Origin: Syntrophomonadaceae bacterium
GTDB lineage: Bacteria > Bacillota > Dethiobacteria > DTU022
DNA length: 64,000 nt
NCBI GenBank assembly: GCA_007121075.1
Contig: SKMK01000024.1
Coordinates: 1-64,000 of the forward strand
Direction: 5' to 3'
Shown: positions 7,626 to 60,699 of the stretch, one piece after another
How positions within the stretch are numbered: the stretch's first letter is position 1
Layout: the number at the start of each line of letters is the position of its first letter
Translations under genes and position numbers: made by a program
The notes under the pieces: model-generated
What the model saw: only the letters and a program-made list of their open reading frames with translations
Told to the model about the DNA's origin: nothing
Databases searched by the model: none

Positions 7626-8915
7626 ATGAAAATACATTATCCCCTGCTGCAGCATGTGGGAGCCCCGGCCGTACCTGTTGTTGCCCCCGGCGATACTGTA
7701 AGCAGGGGCCGGCTCTTAGCTGAACCGAACGGCCTGGGAGCGAATATTCACGCCGGAGTATCGGGAACAGTAGAAGAGGTCGCCGGCGACAGGATAATTG
7801 TAACCGGAGAAGAAAAGCAAAGAGCTGATTTTATACCAATTGATGAACCTTCCGATTACCTCGAGGCAATCAGTGAAGCAGGCATTGTCGGCGCAGGCGG
7901 AGCCGGTTTTCCCACCGCTATAAAGATTAAATCTCTAAAAAACGCAAAAATGGTTATTGCCAACGGAACGGAATGCGAGCCCATGCTTCAGCATAACATA
8001 AAGTTTATGCAGGACCATCCAGATGTTCTGATCCGGGGCCTAAAATATTTGCAGGAAATAACAGGGGCTCCGATCGCCTTGATCGTTTTAAAAGAAAAAA
8101 ACAAAGCGATGGCTCAAGAGCTGCATAAAATGTGTACGCAGGAAAAGCGAATTCGGATTAAATTGCTGCCCGATCGATACCCCGCCGGAGATGAAAGGGT
8201 TATTGTACGGGAATTGGTGGGTCTGGAAATGAAACCAGGTGAGCTGCCTACAGAAAACGGCCTGCTGATTCAAAATGTGGAGACCATAAAGCGGATCGTA
8301 GAGGCTATTGAACTCCGGAAGCCCTTTATCGACAAGGATATTACCGTGGCGGGGCGAGTTCGAAACGCCCAAAAAGGACGGCCCTTTATGGATGTTCCCC
8401 TCGGGATGCCGGTTGGACTTTACATTGAAGCTGCCGGTGGAGTTATAGAACCGCATGGAGAAATTGTTGTAGGCGGCCCTTTCACTGGCAAATCAGGAAC
8501 ATTTTCTTCGCCGGTCATTAAGACCACGGGGGGAATAATGGTCGGCATGCCTTTTCCCAGGGCAGAGAAGGTATTTGGTGTTCTGGCCTGCGAATGCGGG
8601 GCCCAGGAAGAAAGATTGTATAAGATTGCCCGGGAAATGGGAGCAAAAGAGGTAATCGCTGCCAAATGTAAGAGGATGGAAGAAGTTAACGGACGCTTTC
8701 GCTGCACCAAGCCCGGGATATGCCCGGGCCAGGCGGAAACGGTCATAGAATTTAAGAAAAAAGGGGTTGATGCGCTGCTAACCGGTTCCTGTGAAGAATG
8801 AACTAATACCATTACTGATGTAGCTCCTCGTGTAGGAGTTCCGGTTTACCACAGCACAGACCATATCATGAGAGCGGCTGGAAATCGCCTGGTTAGAAAA
8901 ACAAAGTCTAAATAA
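7626..8915 (+). CDS. prdC: PrdC, RnfC-like electron-transfer selenoprotein of proline reductase (UGA = Sec392)
   Basis: The frame runs 391 codons to TGA at 8799-8801, then continues 37 more codons to TAA at 8913-8915. The join reads TGSCEE-U-TNTITDVAPR, which fits my recollection of PrdC, so the UGA is read as selenocysteine 392 of a 429-residue protein. A hairpin 22 bases after the UGA (CTCCT 8824-8828 with AGGAG 8834-8838) could serve as bacterial SECIS. The middle has the RnfC-type GAGGAGFPTAIK motif near residue 95. PrdC passes electrons from NADH-linked carriers to proline reductase. It is the first gene of the operon, behind AAGGAGGAGG. Confidence 0.93.
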
Positions 8916-8945
8916 ATTATTTTTAAGTAAAGGCAGGTGTTGTTT

Positions 8946-10799
8946 GTGTCCATTACACCCGAAGACGCGAAGCGTTATGAAGATGAGCCAGCAGTGTTAT
9001 GCTGTCGTAAGGATAAAGGATCAGAAATTGATGCCGCCAGCCTGGAAGAGCCGTCTATTCTTCCCGATCTAATTGATTCCGGCCTGTTGGCTATTCCTGA
9101 TGATTGTTTAACTATAGGGGAGGCTTTGGGAACCAGATTGAACCGGGATGTTGACGCTCTTTCTCCTTTAACGCCTGATTTGGTAGAAGGGGAAGTAGCC
9201 TCTTCGGCTCCGGCGCAGGCTGAAAGACCGAAACAGCAACCCAAAGCAGAGGCGGCTGGCCGGAACGATTTCTCTCAGGCCCAGCCTCCTGCCGGCAGTG
9301 TTAAAATAAAAATTGGTAAAGGTGAAGATATTTACCTGGAAATACCGGTAGGCACATCCGGAATGCAAAATGTTCCGGCACAGGTTGGTGAAGAAATACA
9401 GGAAGGCCGGGAAGCTCAGGTAAAAGCGGCAGGTGAAAAAGAACAGAAGAGAACAGTTGAAGAGAGGAAACTTGTTCGCAAGTATTACCCGGTTGAAAAG
9501 ATAGAATTTGGTTCGGAAACCAGGCTCGAGGGGAATACCCTTTATATAAGGGAAAGCATTGTCGAAGAAGCCGCCGCTCAAAATGACCTGGTTGTTTCGC
9601 TTAAACTCGATATTGTTACTCCGGAAGATTATAAAAAATACAGTGAAACCATTCTCGATGTTCAGCCTGTAGCGACTAAAGAAGGAGATAGCTCTCTTGG
9701 AAGCGGTGTTACCAGGGCTCTGGATGGAGTGGTTGTCCTGGTTACCGGCACCGATGCCGAAGGAGTGCAAATCGGTGAGTTTGGTTCCACCGAAGGTAAA
9801 CCGGAAGAAACAATCATGTGGGGAAGACCCGGGGCCCCCGATACAGGCGATATTATCATAAAAACCGAAGCCGTCATCAAAGCAAAAATGAACATGGAAA
9901 GAAGAGGCCCTGTTGCCGTGCACGAGGTGACCGATTATATAATCCAGGAGATTCGAGAAGCGCTCAAACAGGCCGATGAAAACATGTTTGACCGGGAAGA
10001 GGAACTGGCCTATAAAAGAAGACCGCATCAGAAAAAGGTGCTGGTGATAAAAGAAATCATGGGCCAGGGAGCCATGCATGATAATGCCGTTTTACCTGCC
10101 GAGCCAGGCGGGCTGGATGGCAGTATATCCATAATTGACCTGGGTAACCTGCCGGTGGTTTTAAATCCCCTGGAAGCTCTTGATGGTGGGGTGCATGCTC
10201 TAACTTGTGTAGGTCCGGCATCCAAAGAAAATACCAGGCATTACTGGAGAGAACCTCTGATTTTAGAAGTCCTTAACGACGAAGAACTGGATCTGGCCGG
10301 CATCGCTTTTATCGGATCCCCTCATTTGAACTCAGAGAAATACTTTGTTTCTGAAAGGCTGGGCATGATGGTGGAAGCAATGGATGTTGACGGAGTTTTT
10401 ATAGGAACTGAAGGTTTCGGCAACAACCATATTGATTTTGCTATTCATCATTACCAGATGGGAATTCGCGGCATTCCAGTCGTGGGGCTTACTTTTTCCG
10501 CCGTTCAGGGCGCCCTGGTGATGGGGAATGAGTATATGAGGAACATGATTGAACTAAACAAATCGGAAGAAGGAATCGAAAACGAAGTTCTGGCCAATAA
10601 TACTCTTTGCCCTGAAGATGCTGTGCGGGCCACATCCATGTTGAAAGCGGTAATGGCCGGCAAAGAAATCAAAGCTGCGGAAAGCTCGTACAACCGGAAC
10701 GTTAAAGAAAATAACCTGGATCTAATCAAATCACAAACCGGCAGGAATGTTGAAGCTGTCCCCAATGAAACCTCATTATCATCCCGTAGAGGGGAATAG
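8946..10799 (+). CDS. prdA: PrdA, D-proline reductase proprotein (pyruvoyl-forming)
   Basis: GTG at 8946 (MSITPEDAK...) is chosen over GTG 8937 because it fits the known PrdA N terminus and the AGGCAGG spacing. The protein has 617 residues. Cys421 lies in ALTCVGPASKE, the site where PrdA is cleaved and the new N-terminal cysteine turns into a pyruvoyl group. That carbonyl binds D-proline during reductive ring opening to 5-aminovalerate, the acceptor half of a Stickland fermentation. Residues ~85-170 are a low-complexity Gln/Glu/Ala-rich linker. The mature subunits assemble with PrdB, encoded 34 bases downstream. Confidence 0.95.
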   Translation: MSITPEDAKRYEDEPAVLCCRKDKGSEIDAASLEEPSILPDLIDSGLLAIPDDCLTIGEALGTRLNRDVDALSPLTPDLVEGEVASSAPAQAERPKQQPKAEAAGRNDFSQAQPPAGSVKIKIGKGEDIYLEIPVGTSGMQNVPAQVGEEIQEGREAQVKAAGEKEQKRTVEERKLVRKYYPVEKIEFGSETRLEGNTLYIRESIVEEAAAQNDLVVSLKLDIVTPEDYKKYSETILDVQPVATKEGDSSLGSGVTRALDGVVVLVTGTDAEGVQIGEFGSTEGKPEETIMWGRPGAPDTGDIIIKTEAVIKAKMNMERRGPVAVHEVTDYIIQEIREALKQADENMFDREEELAYKRRPHQKKVLVIKEIMGQGAMHDNAVLPAEPGGLDGSISIIDLGNLPVVLNPLEALDGGVHALTCVGPASKENTRHYWREPLILEVLNDEELDLAGIAFIGSPHLNSEKYFVSERLGMMVEAMDVDGVFIGTEGFGNNHIDFAIHHYQMGIRGIPVVGLTFSAVQGALVMGNEYMRNMIELNKSEEGIENEVLANNTLCPEDAVRATSMLKAVMAGKEIKAAESSYNRNVKENNLDLIKSQTGRNVEAVPNETSLSSRRGE

Positions 10800-10833
10800 G
10801 CTTAAGTCTAAAGATCATAAAGGAGGTAATATA

Positions 10834-11571
10834 ATGACCGAGATGACCTTAGTGAAAGGCCTGCAGTCAGAGATCAATGTTCCCTTATCCCCGGAACCGG
10901 TTTGGACGCCTGTGGAAAAAGAATTGCAGGATATGAAAATAGCTCTCGTCACAGCAGCCGGTGTCCATCGCAAGCAGGACAAGAAATTCAACCTGGCTGG
11001 TGATCATACCTTCCGAGAAATTCCCGGTGATACTCCAGCTTCGGAACTCATGGTGACTCATGGCGGGTATGATAATGCAGATGCCAACAAAGATATAAAC
11101 TGTATGTTCCCTCTCGACCGTTTGCATGAGCTGGCGGGAGAAGGATTTGTAAAAGAATCTGCAGACACCCATTTCGGTTTTATGGGTGGAGGCGGTGATC
11201 AAATTAAGTTGAAAGAAGAAACCGGCCCGGAAATTGTAGAAATTTTAAAAAACGAGGGTGTTGATGCTGTCGTTTTAACAGCTGGGTGAGGGACCTGTCA
11301 CCGCTCTGCCGTGATTGTGCAGAGAGCGATTGAAAATGCGGGTATCCCGACCATACTAATAGCTGCCCTTCCTCCCATAGCCAGACATTATGGAACTCCC
11401 CGCGCCTCAGCACCCCTGGTGCCCATGGGGGCAAACCTGGGTGAACCAAACAACCAGGAAAAACAGAGAAATGTGCTGCGCGACACTTTGAAGCAATTAG
11501 TGGAAATAACCACACCGACAACTATAGTGCCTTTGCCGTACCGGTATACCGGCGGAGAGGAAGCTTCATAG
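10834..11571 (+). CDS. prdB: PrdB, selenocysteine subunit of D-proline reductase (UGA = Sec152)
   Basis: The frame from ATG 10834 (behind AAAGGAGG) meets TGA at 11287-11289 and continues without a break to 11571, giving 245 residues. The local sequence VLTAG-U-GTCHRSA is the PrdB active site; residue 152 is Sec and the nearby Cys155 is its redox partner. Downstream of the UGA, CGCTCTGC and GCAGAGAGCG (11303-11328) form a hairpin suited to a bacterial SECIS. PrdB supplies the selenolate that attacks the alpha-carbon of proline bound to the PrdA pyruvoyl group. It lies four bases before prdD. Confidence 0.95.
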
Positions 11572-11574
11572 AGC

Positions 11575-12342
11575 ATGAGCCAAAAAGCAGAGGCTTCAAC
11601 AAAACGACTTGTTATAAAGGTTTATCATGTCGAAGAAGTGAAATTTGCCCCCGAGAGTAAATTTGAAGGCGGTACACTATTTGTCGAGCATGAGAATTTG
11701 CCTTTGTCCGGGGAACTTGTACCTCTGCTCAGCCGAATCGAGGTAGATATCCTAAAACCCGGACAGCTTCATAGGGAAGTTCCATCCATTCTCGATGTGA
11801 TTCCCATTGCCTGCAAGGTTTTGGGGCGCCTGGGAGAAGGAATTACTCATACCCTGACCGGGGTTAGCACAGTTTTGACTTTGGCCGATGCCGGTGGGAA
11901 ACCGCCGGCTCAAATCGGCAGCTCGGCCGGCTTTTTAAACGAAAAGATGTTAACCGATCGCCCCGGCACCCCATCCGGCCGGGATTTTATTATCTTGATC
12001 CGGCTTAATTTGAAGGAAGGGGTTACTTTTTCCCGAAAAGGAATTATGGCAGCCCACCAGGCAGCGGACGATTATCTTCAAAAAATCCGAAATCAATTAA
12101 AGAAAATAGACGGGCAGGCCTATACGGAAAAACACGTTTTTGAAGAACTTTTAGATCACGGTAAAAAAAAGGTTCTTCTCATAAAACTGCTTCCGGGTCA
12201 AGGCGCAATGCATGACTTTTTTGTTTTACCCAATGAGCCATGCGGAGTTGAAGGTAGCCGCTCCATAATCGATCTGGGAAACATGCCCGTATTTTTAACT
12301 CCAAATGAATACCGGGATGGAGCTCTGAGGGCCTTGACTTGA
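11575..12342 (+). CDS. prdD: PrdD, paralog of the N-terminal part of PrdA
   Basis: A 255-residue protein that aligns with PrdA from about residue 175 to the cleavage point: shared blocks include KVYHVEEVKF/KYYPVEKIEF, PGQGAMHDFFVLPNEPCG/MGQGAMHDNAVLPAEPGG and SIIDLGNMPV. It stops with ALT, exactly where PrdA has ALT followed by the pyruvoyl-forming cysteine; a UGA stop occupies the cysteine position. PrdD is therefore a naturally pre-cut counterpart of the PrdA N-terminal chain. Its exact role in proline reductase assembly or activity is not established. It is translated four bases after prdB. Confidence 0.9.
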   Translation: MSQKAEASTKRLVIKVYHVEEVKFAPESKFEGGTLFVEHENLPLSGELVPLLSRIEVDILKPGQLHREVPSILDVIPIACKVLGRLGEGITHTLTGVSTVLTLADAGGKPPAQIGSSAGFLNEKMLTDRPGTPSGRDFIILIRLNLKEGVTFSRKGIMAAHQAADDYLQKIRNQLKKIDGQAYTEKHVFEELLDHGKKKVLLIKLLPGQGAMHDFFVLPNEPCGVEGSRSIIDLGNMPVFLTPNEYRDGALRALT

Positions 12343-12416
12343 AAGAACTTGCTTTTAACCCAAACAGTATTGGACCGTGCTTTGAAGGCTGAATAATGTT
12401 CCGGGAGGAATAAAAC

Positions 12417-12875
12417 ATGGGAATTGGCCCTTCTACCAAGGAAACTACCAGGCACCATTTCAAAGATCCCCTTTTGGAATTACTGGGTGATGATAACGAT
12501 TGCCGACCGGTGGGGGTAATAGTGGTAGGAATAGCGGCTGATTATGAAAGCAAGAAATATATCATCGATCGCCTTGGCACATGGGTGGGCGCCCTTAAAC
12601 CTGACGGAGCCATAGTTTCCATGGACAGCTGGGGCAACAGCCATATAGATTTCAATCTTTTACTGGAAAAGTTGTCAAATATGAAAATTACAGCTGTGGG
12701 GCTTTGCTTTCAGGGAAAACAAGCCGAACCGGTAACCCCGAACAGCTCCCATGCTGTTGTGGTTGATACCAGCAAGTCTCCAGGAGGGCGGGAGACTGAA
12801 ATTCTTGGGGAAAACAATATCAACAGGCAGGATGCCCGCAAAGCACTGGCAATGTTGAAATTACTGAGCAATTAG
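12417..12875 (+). CDS. prdE: PrdE, paralog of the C-terminal (pyruvoyl) part of PrdA
   Basis: A 152-residue protein beginning MGIGPSTKETTRHHF, which aligns with TCVGPASKENTRHYW of PrdA; the initiator methionine and Gly2 occupy the places of Thr and the pyruvoyl-forming Cys. The rest follows the PrdA C-terminal chain (SWGNSHIDFNLLLE versus GFGNNHIDFAIHHY; NNINRQDARKALAMLK versus NTLCPEDAVRATSMLK). Without that cysteine it cannot form a pyruvoyl group. GGGAGGAA precedes the ATG. With PrdD it forms a split, cofactor-free copy of PrdA. It ends the operon; no proline racemase (prdF) or prdR is visible in the window. Confidence 0.9.
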   Translation: MGIGPSTKETTRHHFKDPLLELLGDDNDCRPVGVIVVGIAADYESKKYIIDRLGTWVGALKPDGAIVSMDSWGNSHIDFNLLLEKLSNMKITAVGLCFQGKQAEPVTPNSSHAVVVDTSKSPGGRETEILGENNINRQDARKALAMLKLLSN

Positions 12876-41649: not shown

Positions 41650-41767
41650 CCCCGGCGCTATGGAAAGAGATGCTGTTTGGGTTTTTCGTCCCGGCCCGGG
41701 CTCCAGCTTTTTTATACTTTCTTGATTAGAACGGCCTTACAAAATGAAATGGAGGAAGATCTTATTT

Positions 41768-42589
41768 ATGACCGAGAAGACGATCATTACTGTTGCCCCT
41801 ACAGGGAACGTGCCCACGCAGGATCTTAACCCCCATACCCCTGTAACTACGGAAGAGATAGTCCAGGATATTTATCGCTGTTACCTGGAAGGCGCCTCTG
41901 TAGCCCATGTCCATGCCCGGGATGAAAAGGGTTGCCCCACAGCGGATCCTGATGTGTTTGAAGAGATCATCGAAGGGGTCAGGCAGAAATGCGATATTAT
42001 TATTCAGCTTTCAACCGGGGCCAGGGGAGGAAGCTATGAAGAAAGGGGCCATTGTGTCGAACTTAAGCCAGAGATGGCCAGTTTGACCACCGGGTCTTCA
42101 AACTTCCCCGGAGCTGTAAATTATAATCCACCGGATTTAATCGAAAATTTGGCCCGTAAAATGTTTGAGGCAGGAGTTAAACCGGAGCTGGAAATATTTG
42201 ACCTGGCCATGATCGACGGCGCCCTGAATTTATTAAAAAAAGGGTTGCTGAAAGAGCCTCTGCATTTTAATCTGGTCCTGAATGTGCCCGGCTCGCTGAA
42301 AGGAACCCCGAAAAACCTTTTTATACTCAAGGAAAGTTTGCCTCCGCAGTGCACCTGGACTGTTTCGGCCATTGGCAAAAGTCATAAAAATCTAATGGCC
42401 CTGGCTTTGGTCCTTGACGGCAATGTAAGGGTGGGCATTGAAGATGTGATCGAACTGGAAAAAGGAAAGCCGGCAAGCAATTTAGAGCTGGTCAGGAATG
42501 TTAAAGAAATAGCTAAAGTGCTGGGCAAAGACATAGCCTCTCCTTCCGAAGCCAGGGAAATATTAAATCTGGGCAAAGGTGCTCGGTGA
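41768..42589 (+). CDS. BKACE family beta-keto acid cleavage enzyme (DUF849, Kce-like)
   Basis: A 273-residue TIM-barrel enzyme of the 3-keto-5-aminohexanoate cleavage group. Marks: IITVAPTGN, ASVAHVHARDEKG (zinc-binding H-x-H), IIIQLSTGARGG, and KPEMASLTTGSSNF with the catalytic E-M-x-S. It condenses a beta-keto acid with acetyl-CoA to give acetoacetate and a CoA ester; Kce itself works in lysine fermentation, but other members take different substrates. ATG 41768 fits GGAGGAAG better than ATG 41744. No kdd/kal/kamD genes adjoin it. Confidence 0.9.
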   Translation: MTEKTIITVAPTGNVPTQDLNPHTPVTTEEIVQDIYRCYLEGASVAHVHARDEKGCPTADPDVFEEIIEGVRQKCDIIIQLSTGARGGSYEERGHCVELKPEMASLTTGSSNFPGAVNYNPPDLIENLARKMFEAGVKPELEIFDLAMIDGALNLLKKGLLKEPLHFNLVLNVPGSLKGTPKNLFILKESLPPQCTWTVSAIGKSHKNLMALALVLDGNVRVGIEDVIELEKGKPASNLELVRNVKEIAKVLGKDIASPSEAREILNLGKGAR

Positions 42590-49388: not shown

Positions 49389-49913
49389 TCAGGATTCATC
49401 CTTTGGAGAGATGCCTTTTTCGAGGAGTATTTCCGCCGTCCAGCAGGCTACCTGGCCCGAAACATTGGTGCACTTGTCATCATGGCCGCCGGCTTTCTCA
49501 AACTTTTGGTAGTCTTCGGGATCCCACAGCTTATAAGAGCGGCCGACAACATTCTTTTGGACTTCAGCGCAGGTTACTCCTCCGAACTCTTTGGTAAATT
49601 TCTGGTGGAGCTGCCGGGAGTAAGAGAAGTTTTTCTTGCGGGCGGCAGTTTTTTGCCCGAACTGCGATCTTTCCCGCCCGTAATAACTGCTGATCGCGGC
49701 CAGGCCCCCGACCAGGGCTCCGCAGGTTCCCTCCCCGCTGAGTGCCCCTCCTCCGGCAAAGGCGTGAGCCGCTTTTATGACTGGATCGTCAATACCGTCA
49801 AAGAAATCCTGCAGGGCGGCCAGGACTGCCTGGGGGCAGGCCCCGTATTTTCCCTCGTATTCATAGGCCCGGTTGTAAATATCCTCCAATAGCTGCCGGT
49901 GGTCTTCTGCCAT
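49389..49913 (-). CDS. C_GCAxxG_C_C family redox protein
   Basis: A 174-residue protein of the C_GCAxxG_C_C family. Cysteines occur in YGACPQAVLAAL (~26), GEGTCGALVGG (~64), GGVTCAEVQKN (~115) and DKCTNVSGQVACWTAEILLE (~145 and 155), in the order that names the family. In related bacteria one or more of these are selenocysteine; here all are Cys. Some members are membrane-linked or fused to redox partners; this one is soluble. Function is unproven. It is followed downstream by the HesB-like selenoprotein in the same direction. Confidence 0.87.
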   Translation of the reverse strand: MAEDHRQLLEDIYNRAYEYEGKYGACPQAVLAALQDFFDGIDDPVIKAAHAFAGGGALSGEGTCGALVGGLAAISSYYGRERSQFGQKTAARKKNFSYSRQLHQKFTKEFGGVTCAEVQKNVVGRSYKLWDPEDYQKFEKAGGHDDKCTNVSGQVACWTAEILLEKGISPKDES

Positions 49914-50180
49914 CTCGATCTGCTCCTTTTGAGGTTTTTTAGTGCTTATTTTATATTCTTTTTCAGGTCCGCATCTCCTTTAAAAAGTTTTCGGAAACAG
50001 CAATGGTTGATGGGGAAGGTTTTTTTGTTCAAAGCTATTTTTGAGGATTGCTTATGCTAAACGGAAAGATTCTTGTCGAATTTGTATCCCTCCCCGGTGT
50101 GGCAGGAACCGGTTGGCAGGGTGTTGAATTTTATTTTTAAGTAGCCGTAACAGAAGTTACTTGTAGAGGAGGGGAAGGTC

Positions 50181-51929
50181 ATTAAATATGCGGACTTAAT
50201 CTGCCAGGCCAGAGATGAAATAAGGAATAACGGACCTGTTATTGATGATATCAGGAGCGAGGCGGTAAAGCTTGGTACCAGCATCAAAATAGGGCGGACC
50301 GCCTTTTTTGATGAAATGGGAGTATCATCGGAACTTGAATATAAAAGGCAGGCCATGAAAGAGAAACGGATCATGGTTCATGCCCATATTGGAATGAGCA
50401 GTTGGGAGGCGACAGCCGAGGCCCTGAAAAAACTGTATTTTGAGGCAAAGGAAAGGGGCGTCCAGGTAGACCGTTACGGGTTGTGCCTGGACCGGAGAAT
50501 GGGGTTACCGCGGCAACTGCGTCGCAGGGTCCCTGCAGAAACAGGACCAACCCTGGAAAACCCGGAAGACTGGTTGGAAGTAGCCAATCTGGTCCCGATC
50601 CAGCCTCACCTGGGAGACTCGATGATCGGGTTTCCAGCTTCGGCAGAAAACACTCTGCTGGCCCTGCAGGCCGGGGTAACCACAATCGGGAACCTTTCCC
50701 AGTATTTTTCAATGCAGGCGCCGATGTGGCGTGACCAGCTTGAAACCGCCGTGGAAACAGTTAAGGCCATGGCCATCATCGGGTTGTTGAGAGAAAAGGG
50801 CACCTTGCTCCATTCCTACCTGGAAGACGGGCTCGGAGCTCTGTTTTATGATTGTGCCACGGTAGCCGGATGGGCCATGCTGGAAAAGTACCTGGCGGAA
50901 GAGTTGCTGGGGACAAAACTGACCCACTGTAATGGAGGGTTAACTTCTGATCCGGTTAAAAGAGCCGGATGGATTTTTGCTCTTGATCAGATTCATGACC
51001 ACGACTGCATCGGCTCCATGTTTTACGGGGATACCATCTCTTTCACAGATGATTTTGAATGGAACCGGGGGATGGTGGCCGAATATATGCTTTGGGATGC
51101 CATGGCCCAGGTGGCCTGCCCCACCGGGCATGCACTTCATCCTTTGCCGGTCACGGAAGCGGTCCGTGTCCCTTCAGGCGATGAAATACTGGACATCCAT
51201 ATTTTTGCCCGCCGGGTAATCGGGACGGCCGAAAAAACTGCTCCTTACATCGATTTCAGTAGATCCCGCGAGTTTGCCGCGCGAATGGTAAACGGGGGGA
51301 AAGAAGTGTTCCGCAATGCCCTTGACGGTTTGCAGGAAGCGGGGGTTGATACCCGGAACCCGCTGGAAATGCTTTATGTCCTTAAACAGCTCGGGGCGGC
51401 GGCTTTTGAAGAGCTGTTTGGGGCCGGCAAACCGGGTGAAGGTTTTCCCAGGGGCAGGGTACCCGTGATTCCCACTGATGTATTTGAACATACAAAGGCC
51501 AATCAAAAAAAGCTGTGGAAACAACTATCACCGGAAATGCTTGGCAAAGCCAGTAGCAAATTATTTGTTCTTGCCTCCACCGACGTGCATGAACATGCCC
51601 TTTTCCTGCTTCACCAGCTTTTACAGCAGGCCGGTGCTGATGTAATTAATCTCGGCCCGGAAATGAATACCGACCAGATCGCTGCGGCAGCGGGACAGTA
51701 CGACCCCCATGCCCTGGTGGTCAGCACCCATAATGGGATGGCCCTGGAATATGCACAGAATTTAAAGAAGGAGCTCCAGCAATTAAACTGCCGCGCTCCG
51801 GTATTTTTCGGGGGCAAGTTGAATCAAAAACTCGAAGATCGGGTAATGCCGGTAGACGTGAAAGATGAAATCAAGGAGCTCGGCTTTTACCCCTGCCAAG
51901 AAATAAGTGATTTATTCTTGCTTTTATAG
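50181..51929 (+). CDS. unrecognised fused TIM-barrel-like / B12-binding protein
   Basis: The frame is open from 50151 and has no ATG, GTG or TTG before ATG 50316, yet AGGAGGGG (50167-50174) lies six bases before an in-frame ATT at 50181 and the intervening codons look coding. From ATT it has 582 residues; from ATG, 537. The C terminus (~460-580) resembles a cobalamin-binding domain: LASTDVHEHALFLLHQLL (D-x-H-x-x-A in place of D-x-H-x-x-G), VVSTHNGMAL and APVFFGGKLN. The first ~350 residues recall glutamate-mutase-E-type barrels (GFPASAENTLLALQAGVTTIGNLSQ) without matching a family I know. A B12-dependent mutase or methyltransferase is a guess. It precedes the GldA-like gene by 36 bases. Confidence 0.78.
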   Translation: MKYADLICQARDEIRNNGPVIDDIRSEAVKLGTSIKIGRTAFFDEMGVSSELEYKRQAMKEKRIMVHAHIGMSSWEATAEALKKLYFEAKERGVQVDRYGLCLDRRMGLPRQLRRRVPAETGPTLENPEDWLEVANLVPIQPHLGDSMIGFPASAENTLLALQAGVTTIGNLSQYFSMQAPMWRDQLETAVETVKAMAIIGLLREKGTLLHSYLEDGLGALFYDCATVAGWAMLEKYLAEELLGTKLTHCNGGLTSDPVKRAGWIFALDQIHDHDCIGSMFYGDTISFTDDFEWNRGMVAEYMLWDAMAQVACPTGHALHPLPVTEAVRVPSGDEILDIHIFARRVIGTAEKTAPYIDFSRSREFAARMVNGGKEVFRNALDGLQEAGVDTRNPLEMLYVLKQLGAAAFEELFGAGKPGEGFPRGRVPVIPTDVFEHTKANQKKLWKQLSPEMLGKASSKLFVLASTDVHEHALFLLHQLLQQAGADVINLGPEMNTDQIAAAAGQYDPHALVVSTHNGMALEYAQNLKKELQQLNCRAPVFFGGKLNQKLEDRVMPVDVKDEIKELGFYPCQEISDLFLLL

Positions 51930-51965: not shown

Positions 51966-53108
51966 ATGGCTGATAAAATAACCACAGATAACAGTTTGGT
52001 CGGTTTGGCCGGTGAAGGGGCCGGTAATTACCGGGCAGCTGTATTTCCCGGGAAATACCTGCAGGGTCCCGGTATCCTGGCTCTGACCGGCACTGCTGCT
52101 GCTGAACTGGGCGGAAAGTCCCTTCTGGTAGGAGGGAAAAAGGCTCTTGCCGAAAGTTACGCTCAGATAAAAAATGCCCTTGATGAGAAAAGTATCATCC
52201 ATGAAACTTTTCCTTTTGGCGGTGAATCCACAGAAAGGGAAATAGAAGCTGTGGCCGGACAGGCCAGGAGGAGTGGAGCAGAAATGATTATCGGCATCGG
52301 CGGCGGGAAAGCAATTGATACGGCCAAGGCTGCCGCCTGCCAGGCCGGGGTCAAGGTTATGATTGTTCCCACCGTGGCGTCCACGGATGCTCCAACCAGC
52401 ACCATTTCCGTTATCCATGACGAAGCAGGCCAATTTATAAAATATTACCGGGCTGGAAGGAACCCCGATGTGGTTATTGTCGATACCAGGGTTCTGGCCC
52501 GTGCCCCGTCACGTTTCTTATGTGCCGGTACCGGTGGCGCCCTGGCGGTCAGCTATGAAGCTGAAGCTTCGGCAAAAGCAGGCGCATTGAATATGGCCGG
52601 GGGATTGCCTTTTGGCGCTGTTACCGGGTGGGCCGTTTTAAGCAGGGAACTAATTTTCAAGTACGCCGGGATGGCTAAATTGTCGGCTGACCGGGATCTG
52701 GTCACACCTGCTCTTGAATCGGTCGTAGAAGCAAACCTGCTCTTGAGCGGGATCGGATTTGAAAGCGGAGGGTTGGCGGCGGCCCATGGCGTATACCACG
52801 GTTTCCGTTCTGCTGTTCCCGGGTTGAAGTGCCTGCACGGCGAGGTGGTAGCGTTTGGGACCCTGGTCCAGCTGGTTTTGGAAAACCGTGATGAAGCAGA
52901 AATACGCCCGGTGATCGACCTTTATGAGGGTTTGAATCTGCCTTCCAGCCTCGATCAGCTTGGGCTTGCCGATCCCGGCCCGGAACTATTACAAGAAGTG
53001 GCCCGCTATGCCTGCGAGGCGGGGACCACTAAGAATATGCCCTTTGCGGTGGACAGCAGCATGATGTTAGAGGCAATCTTGTTTGCCGATGCCTTTAACA
53101 GGGTTTGA
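51966..53108 (+). CDS. glycerol-dehydrogenase-like protein lacking a metal ligand
   Basis: A 380-residue group III iron-type alcohol dehydrogenase resembling GldA. NAD loop IGIGGGKAIDTAKA near 110 and PTVASTDAPTS near 135 are intact, and the C-terminal histidines (AAAHGVYHGF, CLHGEVVAFG) are present. But the metal-binding aspartate of the G-x-G-D-A-L motif is glycine here (AGTGGALAVSYEAEA, residue 191), so normal zinc binding is doubtful. It lies 36 bases after the B12-type gene behind GGGGGGTG, surely co-transcribed. It may use a different chemistry or act as a partner protein. Confidence 0.85.
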   Translation: MADKITTDNSLVGLAGEGAGNYRAAVFPGKYLQGPGILALTGTAAAELGGKSLLVGGKKALAESYAQIKNALDEKSIIHETFPFGGESTEREIEAVAGQARRSGAEMIIGIGGGKAIDTAKAAACQAGVKVMIVPTVASTDAPTSTISVIHDEAGQFIKYYRAGRNPDVVIVDTRVLARAPSRFLCAGTGGALAVSYEAEASAKAGALNMAGGLPFGAVTGWAVLSRELIFKYAGMAKLSADRDLVTPALESVVEANLLLSGIGFESGGLAAAHGVYHGFRSAVPGLKCLHGEVVAFGTLVQLVLENRDEAEIRPVIDLYEGLNLPSSLDQLGLADPGPELLQEVARYACEAGTTKNMPFAVDSSMMLEAILFADAFNRV

Positions 53109-59671: not shown

Positions 59672-60280
59672 TTAATTTCCCGGATTTCCGGGTTTTCCTG
59701 CACCTTCGGGACGGCCCCTGTTGCTATTATTTCCGGCGCCGGCGCTGTTATTGGCATTCCTGGCTGCTTCGGAAACACTCTGTCCAAACTCTGCTCCATT
59801 GTCACGCGCTTGACTGGCAACTGCCTGGCCGAAAGCTTTTCCATCTTCCGGGGTTAATTCTTCTTCTCCGGTCAAAGCTTCGTGGACTGCCTTAGCAACT
59901 TCCGACCGCTCATTGCCATTATCGCCTTCGTTCTGAGCTTTGGCAGCTTCCCGGGCCGCTTCCGAAACTAACTCACCCAGGTTGATCTCCTCGTCTTGAG
60001 CTCTTGCCGATACTTTTTCTCCGAAAGTGGTGTCCAGATCTTTGGGGGACGTGGCATCTCCGCTGAGGGCATTATGGACGGCTTCTGAAACAGAGAGTGG
60101 TTCTTCCTCAGCCCCGTATTCATTTTCTTCGTTGGGGTCAGTTTCATCCTCTTCAGGATTAGTAGCATCGGTCTCAGCGTTCAAACCAAACACTCCTGTC
60201 GCTGGAGAATACCCGGCAAAGGCAATCCCGCTGCCGGCTAAAACAACAATTAACAGTGCAATAATTAATGTTTTGCTCAT
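59672..60280 (-). CDS. secreted two-repeat protein under c-di-GMP riboswitch control
   Basis: A 202-residue exported protein with a signal peptide (residues 1-22, ending AFAG) and an acidic linker (~35-60). Two repeats follow: SVSEAVHNALSG...FGEKVSARAQ...LGELVSEAAREA (about 63-112) and EVAKAVHEALTG...FGQAVASQAR...FGQSVSEAARNA (about 127-175). Each is a pair of amphipathic helices. The C terminus is Asn/Gly/Pro-rich. Alanine-rich helices suggest a surface or matrix protein. GGAGGCAG precedes the ATG, and a class I c-di-GMP riboswitch lies 72 bases upstream. Confidence 0.82.
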   Translation of the reverse strand: MSKTLIIALLIVVLAGSGIAFAGYSPATGVFGLNAETDATNPEEDETDPNEENEYGAEEEPLSVSEAVHNALSGDATSPKDLDTTFGEKVSARAQDEEINLGELVSEAAREAAKAQNEGDNGNERSEVAKAVHEALTGEEELTPEDGKAFGQAVASQARDNGAEFGQSVSEAARNANNSAGAGNNSNRGRPEGAGKPGNPGN

Positions 60281-60351: not shown

Positions 60352-60436
60352 GATTCGGCAGCCTGGCGATCCTGGTTCGTTTCCAAACTGTAGACCCATG
60401 GCTTTGCGCGCTTTCCTTTCGGAAAAGTTGCCTTTA
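60352..60436 (-). ncRNA. c-di-GMP-I (GEMM) riboswitch
   Basis: The minus-strand RNA reads AAGGCAACUUUUCCGAAAGG, then AAAGCGCGCAAAGCCAUGGG, UCUAC, a variable arm, then CCAGGAUCGCCAGGCUGCCG. This matches class I: a GAAA tetraloop on a U/C-rich stem, the GCAAAGCC joining segment and the final GCC...CUGCCGA. It controls the secreted repeat protein. Confidence 0.9.
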
Positions 60437-60699
60437 TCGTTTGGTTCTGCTCATGTTTTATGTAAATAATACCTAAGTATGTTTGCTATGTCAACATTCA
60501 TGATGGAAAATTAATTCCTGATCTTGGCCTTGAAAAAGGAGAAACAGCAACAAAGTAGAATTGAATAGTAAAAACATAATAATGTGAAAACTGTAATGAT
60601 TGCGAGAAAAACTGAAATGACCCGCTTTCAGGAAGGGCTTATATGCTTATAAGGTCTAGCGGCCTTAAATAGTTATTTCATATTTCAGGAGGTGTGGTT

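Follow-up and report, generated by a model that had tools for sequence, protein, structure and literature searches.

An ATT-initiated gene of a Syntrophomonadaceae bacterium probably represents an undescribed family of adenosylcobalamin-dependent mutases

Contig SKMK01000024.1 of a Syntrophomonadaceae bacterium from sediment (assembly GCA_007121075.1) carries, in the 64,000-nucleotide stretch that was analysed here (positions 1 to 64,000, hereafter the window), a gene at 50181..51929 on the plus strand, stop codon included, which opens with ATT and encodes 582 amino acids. Is this frame with its odd start codon a genuine gene, and if so, what kind of B12 enzyme does it encode? The original prediction, made from the sequence alone, described a chain of ~580 residues with a cobalamin-type back part that matches no known mutase or methyltransferase and is paired with an altered dehydrogenase. 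The open frame, the selection acting on it, its predicted structure and its relatives suggest that its product probably belongs to a so far undescribed family, the members of which would be adenosylcobalamin (AdoCbl)-dependent radical mutases of the carbon-skeleton type.

The mutase-like gene is enclosed by an in-frame open stretch of 592 codons (50151-51926), and its frame has no ATG, GTG or TTG ahead of residue 46. A Shine-Dalgarno sequence, GGAGG, lies at 50168..50172 on the plus strand, 8 nt before the ATT, and an ATT start with GGAGG at exactly this distance is common to three congeneric genomes (window 50181-50183, L016 at 10001 and L031 at 3229). The residues before 46 are conserved in distant homologues, which start at the same place. 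Because no standard start precedes residue 46, the ATT and GGAGG are conserved and distant homologues begin there, we regard the ATT start as real; on the latter two grounds we rejected initiation from the residue-46 ATG. ATT-type starts are rare and often regulatory. No riboswitch was found ahead of the gene, and promoter patterns at the locus were at chance level. Terminator-like sites numbered 10 against 5.3 by chance, with several inside the gene, and were not used as evidence. The window protein and its L016 counterpart share 78% identity, with dN ~0.15, dS ~2.6 (saturated) and dN/dS ~0.06, indicative of purifying selection, and a chance open frame is therefore ruled out.

Only one part of the protein is recognised by sequence methods, the Pfam B12-binding domain PF02310 at residues 466-554 (48 bits). 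The front part had zero sequence matches in Pfam, NCBIfam or PDB families, and profile searches gave no characterised family beyond the B12 domain, in agreement with the original prediction. An AlphaFold (AF2) model built from the window protein with 25 relatives (pLDDT 93.6, pTM 0.93) shows a TIM barrel and a C-terminal B12 domain. From the model, residue conservation, homologue alignment and fold searches, the chain is divided on the plus strand into a TIM-barrel catalytic domain (residues ~61-330, 50361..51170), a helical linker with an invariant E410 (residues ~331-440, 51171..51500) and a Rossmann-type B12-binding domain (residues ~441-582, 51501..51926). In a Foldseek search, the top group of matches was methylmalonyl-CoA mutase (MCM; E 1e-12 to 1e-11, with 1req_A at E 5e-12 and TMq 0.57), followed by ornithine aminomutase (E 9e-10), with the glutamate mutase E component (E 4e-9) also among the matches and methionine synthases (E 7e-9) lower in the list. 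The front part had been predicted to resemble glutamate mutase E, which holds by fold but not by sequence, as hhalign of the family against E. coli GlmE gave a probability of 0.9% (E 0.058). The window protein is thus a mutase by its predicted fold and a member of an undescribed family by its sequence, and the superfamily traits of a TIM barrel, a Rossmann B12 domain and a D-x-H cobalt-ligand motif are all present in the sequence and model. No viral relatives were detected by sequence or by fold, and the genome holds no paralogue beyond B12 domains.

Relatives were gathered from genome contigs, whole genomes and rhizobial plasmids, and the family spans Bacillota, Thermodesulfobacteriota, Chloroflexota, Actinomycetota and rhizobial plasmids. 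Carriers are rare: 3 of 398 genomes in the window's phylum (its own included), and 2 of 400 in Chloroflexota and 2 of 395 in the phylum of L017 (the centre genome included in both). The tree resolves clade I (the window's Syntrophomonadaceae, UASB270, an Olavius symbiont, Desulfobacterales, the PL23a bin, Chloroflexi MAG-37 and G1188), clade II (Lachnospiraceae, Eubacterium, Lutispora and others), a rhizobial clade on plasmids of Shinella, Phyllobacterium and Neorhizobium, a divergent Solirubrobacter copy, the deep member L092, and clade III. In the literature available to the searches, no description of this family turned up. At L041, a 426-aa mutase-like frame (654-1931) stands beside a MutL gene. 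It covers residues 19-199 and 393-568 of the query but not the central part of the barrel, which could be an internal deletion or an assembly fault.

The B12 domain is present in all 24 relatives that are long enough to include this region. Its motif in the window protein, D-V-H-E-H-A (D468, H470 and A473; 51582..51599, plus strand), has the form D-x-H-x-x-A in place of D-x-H-x-x-G, as had been noticed originally, and is expected to provide the lower-ligand His of base-off/His-on cobalamin. Among the members of the expanded set that cover the motif, His470 has no exception and Asp468 a single one. The Ala is common to most of clade I, one member of which has Gly; it characterises the window's branch and does not amount to a defect. 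The invariant residues of the barrel, namely H67, H69, R98, H143, D146, N171, H211, D216, E326 and R329, are concentrated around the C-terminal strand ends. All members of clade I, clade II and the rhizobial clade keep H67, R98, H143, D146, N171, H211, S212, D216, H317, E326 and R329, and across these clades H69 is replaced only in Phyllobacterium, by Gln. Clade III is without the barrel histidines, and therefore its substrate probably differs from that of the other clades.

In 13 loci of clade II and in L092, a MutL gene (PF13941) is an immediate neighbour of the mutase, and L040's genome has one copy distant from the mutase. Both E. coli GlmL and the MutL that accompanies 2-methyleneglutarate mutase (Mgm) are homologues of the family-associated MutL, at 30-36% identity (E 2e-47 or better). 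Which described enzyme, then, comes closest? The B12 enzyme classes listed in a 2009 survey include MCM, ICM, MeaA, glutamate mutase, methyleneglutarate mutase and lysine 5,6-aminomutase (PMC2667541). The MCM family is the best fold match and has the same domain order in one chain, but identity in the fold alignments is only 13-15%, no acyl-CoA genes neighbour the family, and the absence of the MCM domain PF01642 from 25 members rules out membership. Glutamate mutase shares the fold of barrel and B12 domain, and its MutL/GlmL partner matches that of branch II; however, the E. coli enzyme consists of separate E and S subunits (GlmE/GlmS), unlike the single chain of the family, none of the 25 members matches PF06368 (GlmE), and there is no barrel sequence similarity, so the protein does not belong there. 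No methylaspartate ammonia-lyase gene was seen beside the mutase-like gene.

Among the other explanations, the protein could be a diverged Mgm, or a direct functional analogue of it, acting on a methylene dicarboxylate. Mgm was undetected in sequenced genomes as of 2009 (PMC2667541). Candidate nicotinate clusters were traced via PrpF, and in these a 613-615-aa B12 protein stands beside PrpF, MutL, dimethylmalate-type and nicotinate-type genes. Three such proteins in Eubacteriaceae (L082 7095-8939, minus strand; L085 743-2581; L086 12145-13989, minus strand) are taken as candidate Mgm on synteny, length and D483/H485, which we assume to be the Mgm residues. Mgm, whose architecture is the closest known to that of the present family, likewise unites an N-terminal catalytic part and a C-terminal B12 domain in one polypeptide; its length is similar (615 against 582 aa), it has a MutL neighbour as does branch II, and hhalign aligned it with the family over the whole length at 95% probability. 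The one-chain layout, called an unrecognised fusion in the original prediction, is not new, since MCM and Mgm have it. However, the catalytic part aligns poorly, and by our reading hhalign gives a convincing alignment for the B12 domain alone. BLAST likewise matched the B12 domain alone (28% over 96 aa), the family's A2 hidden Markov model (HMM) reached ~30 bits on the candidates within that domain only, and no relation between the catalytic part of Mgm and the family barrel was detectable by BLAST or HMM. PrpF-type (methylitaconate isomerase), dimethylmalate and nicotinate genes accompany Mgm, but neither the window nor the neighbourhoods listed for relatives showed any of them. With neither catalytic-domain similarity nor nicotinate neighbours, we exclude the protein from the Mgm family, and consider a diverged or analogous Mgm unlikely.

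Just as improbable, in our estimation, is a corrinoid methyltransferase, in which a TIM-barrel methyltransferase would be fused to its own corrinoid protein. The methionine synthases in the fold list and weak matches of corrinoid-protein models to the family's B12 domain speak for it, but mutases come first by fold, the MutL partnership is typical of mutases, and both the corrinoid cap domain PF02607 and the methyltransferase barrel families are absent from 25 of 25 members, which leaves the protein outside this class. An aminomutase dependent on both pyridoxal phosphate and B12, of the OraE/KamDE kind, is perhaps a shade less probable still. D-ornithine 4,5-aminomutase and lysine 5,6-aminomutase share the barrel, the Rossmann B12 fold and an amino-acid context with the family, the former being the second fold group, but profile searches found no OraE or KamD barrel in the members, and membership was rejected; OraE and KamE models gave weak matches in some members (E 0.005).

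The dehydrogenase with which the gene had been paired is a GldA-like homologue of iron-containing alcohol dehydrogenases (51966..53108, plus strand; NF006941, 371.6 bits), 36 bases downstream of the mutase, and it matches glycerol dehydrogenases in the PDB at E down to 6e-80. The gene has a conserved counterpart beside the L016 mutase, with dN/dS ~0.13. Its alteration is borne out by alignment: of the Asp/His/His zinc site of GldA both His are kept, and Gly191 (codon 52536..52538, plus strand) replaces the Asp in G-x-G-D-A-L-A of solved glycerol dehydrogenases, which we take to be a zinc ligand. The L016 homologue also has Gly at this position, and it is possible that the partner is a zinc-free or non-catalytic member of its family. 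That the window copy itself is no longer catalytic, its role being B12 binding or assembly next to a dehydrogenase that is equally altered, might be read from the D-x-H-x-x-A motif, the partner's lost ligand and a genome without MutL, but it retains every residue invariant in branches I and II under strong purifying selection, and with the Ala shared by most of clade I we regard this as the least probable explanation.

We therefore return to the AdoCbl-dependent radical mutase. In such an enzyme, cobalamin would bind base-off/His-on over the mouth of the barrel, and homolysis of the Co-C bond would yield a 5'-deoxyadenosyl radical. The substrate, bound by the barrel's conserved His/Arg/Asp/Glu residues, would lose a hydrogen to this radical, rearrange its carbon skeleton and then regain the hydrogen. 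Handling of the substrate precursor or of the product may fall to an NAD(P)-dependent reductase, namely the ProC-like enzyme of relatives or the GldA-like protein of the window, and in the sister branch MutL/GlmL would reactivate or assemble the mutase.

What would the substrate be? ProC-like reductases adjoin clade I and rhizobial members (L017, L018, L040, L096, L097, L099 and L100), and hydroxyproline genes or clusters surround L019 and L096. A 2-oxoacid:ferredoxin oxidoreductase, assigned by reading the sequences, follows the mutase in L093. The Eubacterium callanderi cluster holds Por-like subunits of such an oxidoreductase, an aminotransferase, an HpaB/4-hydroxybutyryl-CoA-dehydratase-like protein and a sodium-dependent transporter, with a glutamate dehydrogenase nearby (again by reading). 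An aspartate-dehydrogenase-like gene and amino-acid ABC transporters also neighbour relatives. From these neighbours, we put at slightly under even the chance that the window branch acts on a carboxylate derived from an amino or imino acid, such as one of the proline/hydroxyproline type. More tentatively, the family might perform a new B12-dependent carbon-skeleton rearrangement in the catabolism of such imino acids, in anaerobes and on rhizobial plasmids, with a His-rich and possibly metal-assisted active site unlike those of described B12 mutases. The undescribed pathway of the original prediction is plausible from the relatives' gene neighbours, from which its substrate class can only be inferred.

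Several observations weigh against a mutase of this kind or against a common substrate. MutL is missing from the window's genome and from the clade I genomes of L016, L017, L018, L019 and L020, the sole co-directional neighbour of the window gene is the GldA-like protein, not ProC, and methionine synthases figure in the fold list. The active site of glutamate mutase is arginine-rich; the barrel face here presents invariant histidines, a different arrangement, so the mechanism may differ. Clade III loci (L036 1433-9850; L042 4151-13107) hold, by reading, aldehyde dehydrogenase, sugar-isomerase-like, aldolase-like, FGGY-kinase-like and sugar ABC transporter genes. Their B12 protein may be a mutase whose substrate is a sugar or a sugar acid, and with clade III among sugar-type genes, one substrate class therefore cannot hold for the whole family.

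The genome has two BtuR/CobA adenosyltransferases and none of the PduO type, so AdoCbl can be made. A D-proline reductase cluster (PrdC, PrdA, PrdB, PrdD and a PrdA-like fragment; 7626-12872, plus strand) indicates that the host probably handles proline; in PrdB, an in-frame TGA at 11287-11289 is read through as selenocysteine (residue 152 from the ATG at 10834). The cluster lies ~37 kb from the mutase and is linked to it by the contig only. Upstream of the mutase, a divergent gene for a C_GCAxxG_C_C redox protein (49389..49913, minus strand; PF09719) occupies the same place in L016 and L031. Elsewhere in the window, a gene resembling the 3-keto-5-aminohexanoate cleavage enzyme, of lysine-fermentation type, at 41744-42586 (plus strand) scored 303.6 bits, under the model cut-off of 382, and a c-di-GMP-I-GGC riboswitch at 60353-60441 (minus strand, 64.9 bits) lies upstream of a 202-aa minus-strand frame (59675-60280).

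Few AdoCbl mutase reactions are known. A family in which the mutase fold goes with an unrelated catalytic sequence, and which has cultivable carriers, namely Eubacterium callanderi and the plasmid-bearing Shinella, Phyllobacterium and Neorhizobium, would bring a new radical reaction within direct experimental reach. Proteins annotated merely as 'cobalamin-dependent protein' or 'hypothetical protein' would likewise find an explanation and, with its relatives sitting among amino-acid, proline and hydroxyproline genes, the window enzyme may open a so far undescribed degradation route.
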